64,000 nucleotides of DNA from Bdellovibrio sp. (GTDB lineage: Bacteria; Bdellovibrionota; Bdellovibrionia; Bdellovibrionales; Bdellovibrionaceae), in contig JANYDD010000077.1 of assembly GCA_025359945.1 (NCBI GenBank), positions 1-64,000 of the forward strand, written 5' to 3'. The first letter of the stretch is position 1. Each line of letters starts with the position of its first letter. Under the pieces are notes generated by a model. It ran no database searches and was not told where the DNA came from. It saw only the letters and a list, made by a program, of their open reading frames with translations. Both the position numbers and the translations under genes were made by a program. This document shows positions 33,270 to 36,282 of this stretch, piece after piece.

Positions 33270-35102
33270 TTACAAGTCCTCATCGTGAGTTTTTAAACGT
33301 CCTAACATTTTCTCGAAAATATTCGGATCATAAATCATTTTTGGTTTAAATTTGCGACTTCGATAGGTGTCGACTTCGGGTAAATTTAAATACTGATCGA
33401 TAAACTGATCCATAAGTTTTTGCAGACTTGAGGGTGCTTTTTTGTAGTTACTGATCAGATCGGCCACCACATGAATAAGCGCATTTCCGGTTAATCTTTG
33501 GCCATTAATTCTTTGAAGACGCTCTAACTGCTGGCCAAGTTGGTGGGCGCTTTTCCCACTACAAAGTTTTAAGACCTGCGCAAAGGATTGCATCAAATCC
33601 TGCATAGGTTTTTTAAATTTGGATTTAAAATTTCGGTCCTTAGTTGTCGCAAAACTGGATCTCATCGCCAAATAGATTTCCTGGGGCGATAGCGATTGAT
33701 TTTTAATTTGGTTCTGAAGCAAAAAGATAAAACCCTTCTGCATTGAAAAAAGGGCCGGGCGATTTAGTCCGTCCGAAACTTTTTTTGGCCCTGCTGAAAT
33801 TTTTTTCTTTTCTAGTGTGTCGTAGGCTCTAAAAAACTTTTGAAAAATTTGCGGGTCTTTAAGAATTAAAGCTCTTTCCCCTGCAGAAAAACCTAACCGA
33901 TAGAGAAGAGTCTCTTGATAAGATTTTTTAAATTCCTGGTTAAACAACCTCACCGCCAGATGATTTCGAAAAGCCAAGATCGGTTTTTTGGGGCGATTGG
34001 GGTGATTTAACTGGTCGACCACCTGGCAAAAAACTTTGATCATCTCTAAGGCTTTTGTTTTTTGCTCGTTCAGGTTAGTTGAATATCTTTCGACATCATC
34101 ATAGCGATACTGATCATGCCTAATCCCAAATTGTCTGACGCTTCCGTAATCTATAATAGCTGCATCCGCTAAAATATTATCGCCGTCCCAGTCCATCCAG
34201 GCAAAAATATAGTTTGCTTCTAGCTGAGCACTAAATCTTCCAAAGCGTTCGGCTGTTTTTAACAGCCATGTTTGCAGATCTGCAGATGCCGGTAGGATTT
34301 CATTTTGAACTTGCTGGCCCATAAAATAGTCGACAGCTTTTTTTAATTCGGTTTTGCGATTTTGTTTTAGCCAAAGAAAAAGATGTGCCGGGCGAATTAA
34401 ACTTGGCGCGGCTCGAACTCCGATCCCGACGCCTCCGCCTAAATCAATCACACAAAGAACTCGTTCGGTGGCAATATTTTGTAGATGAAAAATTTCAGAC
34501 ATCAGGGCCGCACCCAAAAGCTCGTCCATCTCGGCCTGACCGCAACCATAGCCAAACTCTACAGAGCCCGTCTTCAGGGGCTTTTTCGCTTCGACAGCGC
34601 CCGGAGCTAAACACGTTACGCCAGTGCCCCTGGAACTAACGTCCCAAGTTTTATTTTTAAATTCTATTTGTCCATTCCAAATTCCTCGACCGTCCCCAGA
34701 AGTTTTTCCAACGCGACTTTGGTGCTGCAACTGCAAATAGCGAGTGGCCATAAATTTATTTTTTTTAAGCAATTCGTCGGAAGTATTTTTTTTCGCATGC
34801 GACAGATCGTATTCGTTGACAATCTGCAAGCTAAAAGTCCCGATCAATTTTTCTTTAAGGGACTCGGTCATTATGTGCGGATGAGATTCAGGAAGCAGCC
34901 CCATTTCCTGTGCCAAAGAAAAATTAAAATAAAGAACTTCGCCCGTGGGGATCACCCGAACCGAGTAATCAACGTAACCATCGGGCAACAAGGCCTTTAA
35001 CGGATGACTTCCGTCCAGCAGATCAAACTTAGAATAAGTTGAACCCTGCGAGGGCTGATCTAAACGAATTTGTGGTTTTGCACGAAGGCGTATCCTTCCC
35101 AT
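33270..35102 (-). CDS. Divergent SelO (YdiU)-family protein
   Basis: 610 residues, cytoplasmic. SelO is a pseudokinase-fold protein AMPylase. Recognisable parts: R-V-I-P-T-G-E-V-L-Y-F-N near 47; G-D-G-R-G-I-W-N-G-Q-I near 136 followed by W-D-V-S-S-R-G-T-G-V-T; and W-D-G-D-N-I-L-A-D-A-A-I-I-D-Y-G-S near 310, matching the metal-binding N and D-Y-G of the family, then Y-R-Y-D-D-V-E-R-Y-S. The second G-D-G-R-A-V-L-R-S-S block of classical SelO is replaced by A-P-G-A-V-E-A-K-K, and the C-terminal half is unlike E. coli YdiU. Family membership is likely; activity is uncertain. Convergent with the S41 gene. Confidence 0.7.
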   Translation of the reverse strand: MGRIRLRAKPQIRLDQPSQGSTYSKFDLLDGSHPLKALLPDGYVDYSVRVIPTGEVLYFNFSLAQEMGLLPESHPHIMTESLKEKLIGTFSLQIVNEYDLSHAKKNTSDELLKKNKFMATRYLQLQHQSRVGKTSGDGRGIWNGQIEFKNKTWDVSSRGTGVTCLAPGAVEAKKPLKTGSVEFGYGCGQAEMDELLGAALMSEIFHLQNIATERVLCVIDLGGGVGIGVRAAPSLIRPAHLFLWLKQNRKTELKKAVDYFMGQQVQNEILPASADLQTWLLKTAERFGRFSAQLEANYIFAWMDWDGDNILADAAIIDYGSVRQFGIRHDQYRYDDVERYSTNLNEQKTKALEMIKVFCQVVDQLNHPNRPKKPILAFRNHLAVRLFNQEFKKSYQETLLYRLGFSAGERALILKDPQIFQKFFRAYDTLEKKKISAGPKKVSDGLNRPALFSMQKGFIFLLQNQIKNQSLSPQEIYLAMRSSFATTKDRNFKSKFKKPMQDLMQSFAQVLKLCSGKSAHQLGQQLERLQRINGQRLTGNALIHVVADLISNYKKAPSSLQKLMDQFIDQYLNLPEVDTYRSRKFKPKMIYDPNIFEKMLGRLKTHDEDL

Positions 35103-35602
35103 AGATCATCACATCGGAAGGACCAGGATTTAGCTTAAATCTAGGCTGTCTTGTTTTGAGACCAATTGATTATTTTGCTGATCGACTTCCAGGTCTGCCG
35201 CTAGCTGGGGCAGTTGTTGACAGAGGTCCCGGTGTGAAATCGTCACTGTCAATAAGTTCTGAATTCACCGCTGGCAAGTTTCCGCTTGCGGCTAACTTTG
35301 CCGAGACCGCAGTGGCCAAAATGGTGACTACGGCGGAAGATTTCGCTGTAGGTTTTTTCGCGGCAGCTTTCAAAAACCGATGATATTCTTTCATAAGTTC
35401 GGAAGCATCCCAATTTAGCGCTTTAAGCGCGTTGGGATGACCAGTGAACCGTGACAAAAACTGATTGATGTCATTTGCAATCTTTGGGGTCAGTCCCGAC
35501 ACCTTTTTGGCATCGTCTGTTAGGGCCATCTTATTTTCAGTCACCTTAAGTACAATTTTTCCGGATTTCCCTGGCTCGAAGAACTCAATTTCCGTCGGAG
35601 AC

Positions 35603-35611
35603 GCTGCTGAC
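35603..35611. repeat. Target-site duplication, copy 1
   Basis: GCTGCTGAC, identical to the copy on the other side of the 105-bp element. The bases next to the two copies differ, so the duplication is exactly 9 bp. Confidence 0.85.
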
Positions 35612-35716
35612 CTTACGTATGCACATGACGCCACCTACCTGTCGTGTTGGACTGGAGCGCATTCAAGTCGACAATATTCGACAAGGCGAATTTGCTGGCG
35701 TCATGTGCATAGGTAG
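35612..35716. mobile_element. 105-bp non-autonomous element (MITE-like) with terminal inverted repeats
   Basis: The ends are imperfect inverted repeats of about 21 bp (CTTACGTATG at one end, CTACCTATG read inward from the other), containing perfect 16-bp arms at 35618-35633 and 35696-35711 (TATGCACATGACGCCA and its complement). It is flanked on both sides by the 9-bp direct repeat GCTGCTGAC. The interior (62 bp) has a GTCGA/TCGAC palindrome and no meaningful ORF. Size, terminal repeats and target duplication define a MITE or deletion derivative of an insertion sequence. 9-bp duplications are made by IS1-, IS4/IS10- and some IS5-family transposases; no transposase or second copy was noticed in this window. 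Confidence 0.85.
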
Positions 35717-35725
35717 GCTGCTGAC
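35717..35725. repeat. Target-site duplication, copy 2
   Basis: GCTGCTGAC, second copy. Collapsing the two copies into one restores the reading frame of the interrupted gene. Confidence 0.85.
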
Positions 35726-36282
35726 GCTAAGCTTGGGACTTCGATTTTTAAGAACTGAGTCACTTCTTCGGCGACTTCAACCGTGGTTCTATTTTTTGCA
35801 GGAATCAAAAGTTTTCGACGGCAATTTTCTAATAAGCGTTCGATAGCAATTTTCATTTGCAGTGAAATTTCGGAATTCTCGCGAGCTTTTTCTAACATGG
35901 TCATCAGGGGCTTTAAATCACTGACCGGAAATGATTTGGCTGTACTTAATTTTTGAAAAGGCAGCTGGTGTTTTGCCCGGTCGCCGGCTGAATTTTTTTG
36001 AAATAATTTGAAAGCGTGGGGATGAGATTCTCGAAGACGGATCAGTTCAGAATCAATTTTTTCTAACAGTTCTCTTTGCGTGGACGTTGACGACGGCTGG
36101 CGCGAATTTTCGAGTTCTTGAAACGGGGAAATTATTTTTCCCTCGGATCGGTCTTCGGCCATGGTGGTCAAAGCCAAGCCCATCAACGAAACAACAATTG
36201 CCAAAGAATTTGAAAACACAGGAACCTCCGGTGATTTGCTGATCGCTTCACTGAATTAAAGATTCAAGATTTAAGCCATGCC

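Follow-up and report, generated by a model that had tools for sequence, protein, structure and literature searches.

The short inverted-repeat element at positions 35612-35717 of the window (the whole 64,000-nucleotide stretch of Bdellovibrio sp. DNA analyzed here) is a copy of a new, young, and recently active family of non-autonomous miniature inverted-repeat transposable elements (MITEs) that is associated with insertion sequences (ISs) of the IS1595 family. The full reading, i.e., that a copy of this young family was moved in trans by an IS1595 transposase and truncated a gene at the window locus, is given a probability of about 0.92. All five features by which a MITE is recognized were found: short length with no transposase, terminal inverted repeats (TIRs), target site duplications (TSDs), dispersed copies of homogeneous size, and empty sites. 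The case is well resolved, but an ordinary one: elements of this kind are well known.

Borders of the element and the interrupted gene

Features of the locus are collected in Table 1. Positions 35603-35725 read 5′-GCTGCTGAC / CTTACGTATGCACATGACGCCA...TGGCGTCATGTGCATAGGTAG / GCTGCTGAC. An earlier, sequence-only reading had described perfect 16-bp arms within imperfect terminal repeats, and both are present: the perfect arms lie at 35618-35633 and 35696-35711, the longer arms are 95% complementary, and the 22-bp terminal repeats are imperfect. Two of its measurements were revised once the borders had been set by comparison of all retrieved copies. The body of ~105 bp can be seen in the sequence, but the true element is 106 bp; likewise, the identical 9-base flanks are real, but the TSD is 8 bp rather than 9. 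In 45 of 46 copies the 105-bp unit is followed on its right by a G, the remaining copy being cut by a contig end, and this G is independent of the left-flank base and pairs with the C that opens the left arm. Since the right-hand G is constant and the matching left base variable, the G was assigned to the element. A 9-bp TSD was rejected, its ninth match consisting of the element's own terminal G and a G that happens to precede the left TSD.

The 106-bp MITE has no coding capacity for a transposase. As had been reported, none was found elsewhere in the window, and the only two matches to the arms in the window are the element itself.

The gene that is interrupted is a probable exported-protein gene, and its product is probably truncated by the MITE. 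A TGA at 35701-35703, inside the element, closes the 5′ half of the gene five codons after entry, and the mechanical ORF of the 3′ half (35170-35634) starts at a GTG that also lies within the element. The two halves share one frame, as previously claimed. Removal of the element and one TSD copy yields a single open stretch of 323 codons (...VPSLASAASPTEIEFF...) with the LASAA/SPTEIE join that had been noted. The added length at this locus is 114 bp (38 codons) whether the TSD is read as 8 or 9 bp, and so the argument from frame stands. The frame in which this copy sits in its gene is a closed one.

Among 119 related genomes, no orthologue of the window gene was identified, with one unconvincing match (E = 0.0097), and the empty site of this gene could therefore not be shown. 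The same result would suit a natural two-gene layout in which the element merely lies between two real genes. Such a layout is highly improbable, however, given that the collapsed sequence is one open stretch with a signal-peptide-like start, and that the 3′ half is without a start of its own, the sole mechanical one being inside the element. Adjoining the interrupted gene is a 610-aa protein (33270-35102, minus strand) with a weak, below-cut-off match to YdiU/SelO (NF000658).

Table 1. Coordinates of the element, its target site, the interrupted gene, and other genes extended in frame by the MITE.
Feature	Position	Strand	Remark
MITE copy, 106 bp	35612..35717	+	one private substitution, C38G, relative to family consensus
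Left TIR, CTTACGTATGCACATGACGCCA	35612..35633	+	20/22 identical to right arm
Right TIR, CCTACCTATGCACATGACGCCA (inward reading)	35696..35717	-	arm comparison
TSD, left copy, CTGCTGAC	35604..35611	.	
TSD, right copy, CTGCTGAC	35718..35725	.	
5′ half of interrupted gene, signal-peptide-like start	35701..36219	-	ends ...VPSLASAAYLCT, then stop
3′ half of interrupted gene, same frame as 5′ half	35170..35611	-	reading-frame analysis
In-frame MITE gene, DUF4423 protein, MAID motif	C88:23663-24463		L004/L139
In-frame MITE gene, exported protein	C61		
In-frame MITE gene, 545-codon open stretch	C58		
In-frame MITE gene, HNH protein	C18		
In-frame MITE gene	G132:C237		

Copies, target sites, and empty sites

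The search for other genome copies that the sequence-only reading had proposed returned at least 41 full-length, near-identical MITEs from the organism's own 2.74-Mb genome, a copy number that is a minimum. Forty copies were scored in that genome, with identities of 95-100%. Searching by pattern recovered 49 and 43 arms, with none from control patterns. Exact 8-bp TSDs were present at 35 own copies, the duplicated sequences differing from one another. A 36th copy has a TSD and has lost one terminal G, and in one old copy seven of the eight TSD bases match. Four full-length own copies are without a TSD, all of them within ~215 bp of contig ends, which are places where assemblers misjoin repeats. 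The number of copies and their differing duplications uphold the claim that the locus is a scar of transposition by a non-autonomous element. Two observations had been named as counting against that claim, namely the lack of any other copy and of any uninterrupted form of the gene; copies abound, and for the window gene itself the 119 genomes gave no uninterrupted orthologue.

Divergence from the consensus averages 1.1 bases across 43 full-length copies, i.e., the 41 own copies and two on contigs of a second draft genome, G132. Two diagnostic substitutions, A104G (nine copies) and G33T (11 copies, five of which also have G77C), never occur together, and more than one copy must therefore have acted as a source or template. 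The MITE was not found in plasmids, phages, or viral contigs, and the only records among GTDB contigs were the two from G132.

Identical 8-bp flanks were available for 37 retrieved copies (35 own and two on G132 contigs), and their target preference is loosely palindromic (TAACG-N8-CGTTA). The second position to the right of the TSD is a G in 21 of 37 sites and is followed by a T-T-A tendency, while the left-side mirror is weaker, with a C at -2 in 18 of 37. The test of this preference position by position is sound; the match score over 18 bases, being circular, serves as description only.

Empty sites were shown at two other MITE insertions. In the first, an IS3-type transposase on contig C35 is split by the MITE at QTYGSP/RMT, and uninterrupted homologues exist in genomes G029, G009, and G032, as well as in a paralogue on C53. 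The second is a DUF4423 protein on C88 with an in-frame MITE. Once the insertion is collapsed, Pfam PF14394 spans the site, and relatives are gapless across the conserved MAID motif at which the insertion lies (eleven loci compared).

Long open frames are interrupted by at most 14 of the 35 well-placed own copies, and genic insertions are far below the typical bacterial expectation (P about 2e-11, assuming 88% coding). This bias, together with a hairpin far stronger than that of shuffled sequences (z = -6.5), would also be expected of a functional structured repeat, whether REP/ERIC-like or terminator-like, that is kept at chosen places and does not transpose. Next to no weight can be given to that account. 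The exact duplications at 35 own copies differ in sequence, insertions lie within genes and within another IS, homologues preserve the empty sites, and a search of Rfam with the element gave no RNA family at the gathering threshold. The TSDs by themselves refute this account.

Some MITE copies have themselves been targets. IS630-like elements occupy TA dinucleotides inside MITE copies (L017, L046, L068, and L069, on contigs C96, C20, C41, and C57, respectively), and contigs break within these nested elements. An element with an IS5-like transposase lies inside another copy (L064, 2845-3090 of C13), and the same 3-kb contig carries an old, diverged MITE copy at 743-844. The labels IS630-like and IS5-like derive from partial translations and not from family searches.

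An IS1595-family element as the likely mover

Comparison of ends and TSD lengths makes an IS of the IS1595 family the likely mover of the MITE, in trans. A full IS with matching ends had been suggested as something to look for, and one of this family was found. When 100 relatives were searched, the right end of the MITE had a single weak match, in genome G029, and this match is a terminus of a complete IS. The inverted 27-bp ends of this IS read CCTACCTATGCAC[CT]TGACGCCGGTAA, also given as CCTACCTATGCAC[CT]TGACGCCGGTAAA, and its 291-aa transposase has Zn_ribbon_IS1595 and DDE_Tnp_IS1595 domains (PF12760, PF12762) and the NCBIfam IS1595 model NF033547. The whole G029 copy is without a TSD. It is the right end of the MITE that is most like the IS1595 ends of relatives (CCTACCTATGCACNTGACGCCGGTAA), and the IS ends of G029 and G010 match it over ~27 bp with a few differences.

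In the organism's own genome, IS ends (CCAACCTATGCACTTGACGCAAG) adjoin IS1595 transposase termini at four contig ends, the contigs stopping ~130 bp inside the IS. Three of them encode the last 36 residues of the transposase (94% identical to that of G029) and one encodes approximately the first 29. A collapsed multi-copy repeat would be expected to lack its middle in this way. Because the own-genome assembly holds no complete IS1595 element, only these termini at contig breaks and a remnant on C40, an active transposase in this genome is presumed. The remnant (L061, C40:756-935) derives from another IS1595 transposase, which is more diverged (37% identical), and lies near a MITE copy.

Evidence on the TSD of this IS comes from two assemblies. 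The 8-bp sequence ATTTTTAC is found at opposite IS ends on contigs G000:C47 and G132:C127, and the gene halves beside them join as MKTFLVLGLIIFT-LNSYAGEDN. On the strength of this shared sequence and the joining halves, the own-type IS appears to make 8-bp duplications.

The own IS ends and the right end of the MITE are identical at 19 of 22 positions. No IS encountered in this analysis resembles the interior of the MITE, so an origin by internal deletion would be conjectural. The three differing positions, the unassembled state of an intact IS1595 transposase, and the presence of IS630-like, IS3, and IS5-like elements in the same genome are compatible with a different mover, either from another family that makes 8-bp TSDs or an undetected IS, in which case the likeness to IS1595 ends would reflect convergence or cross-recognition. 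A different mover is nonetheless quite unlikely. Non-MITE loci with near-matching ends (two or fewer mismatches) are IS1595 ends with two exceptions, an isolated match on C6 and an orphan end in G010, and reversed-pattern controls gave none. In addition, the own IS and the MITE alike give 8-bp TSDs, whereas the IS630-like elements insert at TA, as their nested insertions indicate.

If the IS1595-family element is the mover, its transposase would act in trans on the MITE ends, which have the core CCTATGCAC-TGACGC in common with the ends of the IS, and would cut a loosely palindromic, AT-rich target with an 8-bp stagger. Gap repair of the staggered cut would then produce the 8-bp duplication. 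At the window locus, the outcome is an insertion of 38 codons that keeps the gene halves in frame and adds a stop after five codons.

Draft genome G132 (MAG 336R_concoct_85_sub) belongs to another family, and it contains the same IS plus two MITE copies that are 99-100% identical to the consensus and have TSDs. Horizontal transfer of the MITE and IS to G132 was considered and rejected as unproven. A uvrA fragment on the G132 IS contig is 81% identical to uvrA of the window organism and bears only a distant likeness to the uvrA that G132 itself has on its contig C41; the acyl-CoA dehydrogenase beside one of the G132 MITEs is closest to the family of the window organism; and the IS contig and G000:C47 appear to be the opposite flanks of a single insertion. 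A simpler account than transfer is that contigs were misbinned, having come from a close relative or the same population. The contigs of G132 that give this impression, with the window organism or a near relation as their apparent source, are C7, C127, and C237 (L116-L118; JANXMF01).

Coding effects and comparison with known elements

The IS1595 family comprises the ISPna2, ISSod11, and IS1016 groups, among others (Siguier et al. 2009, as cited by PMC12561309 and PMC8101967). Members usually have 8-bp TSDs and a DDE_Tnp_IS1595 domain, with a zinc finger outside the IS1016 group (PMC8101967), and ISApl4 has AT-rich 8-bp repeats (PMC12561309). The system described here agrees in its 8-bp TSD and in a partner IS that combines a zinc ribbon and DDE_Tnp_IS1595 with MITE-like ends; the MITE differs in having no transposase. 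Merlin elements, the eukaryotic relatives of IS1595, have ends that start with GG, whereas the ends here start with CC.

Bacterial MITEs covered by a review include Chunjie of Geobacter, QMITE1 and QMITE2 of Coxiella, MITEAba12, and Correia (PMC10969869). By description, the present family resembles them in being short, free of transposase, and bounded by terminal and direct repeats, and in having tens of largely non-genic copies. Uniformity in both length and sequence is far greater among the present copies than is described for Chunjie and QMITE2. That review names no IS1595-derived MITE (PMC10969869), and the literature searched held no paper with both "Bdellovibrio" and the full name for MITEs. 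The family records a recent expansion of MITEs in a relative of Bdellovibrio, tied to a specific IS family by its ends and TSD length. Its uniform copies can mark insertions and offer a natural collection of target sites, and they explain some contig breaks of the genome.

Wherever a copy lies within a gene, the encoded host protein is probably damaged or extended. The MITE plus its TSD keeps reading frames, and one of the six frames of the MITE is open throughout, encoding a constant peptide, LRMHMTPPTCRVRLERIQVDNIRQGEFAGVMCIGR. At least five genes gain 38 residues in frame in this manner (Table 1). Among clear intragenic copies, five of 14 are open versus one in six expected (P = 0.07, not significant), and a looser count of six in 16 is marginal (P = 0.04); significant in-frame selection was not established, given the P value of the stricter count. 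Rickettsia palindromic elements (RPEs) are ~100-150 bp long and can reside within genes and add an in-frame peptide (PMC10969869). It is rather doubtful that a similar situation, independent of RPEs in origin and driven by IS1595, exists here, in which the size of the MITE is tuned for insertion into genes and some proteins, such as the DUF4423 regulator, may work with the added peptide. The likeness to RPEs lies in similar size and in an intragenic, in-frame peptide, in this case 38 codons long and open in a single one of the six frames. The differences are that most copies of the present family are non-genic or truncate genes, that the in-frame excess is not significant, and that a probable mobilizing IS family is identifiable.
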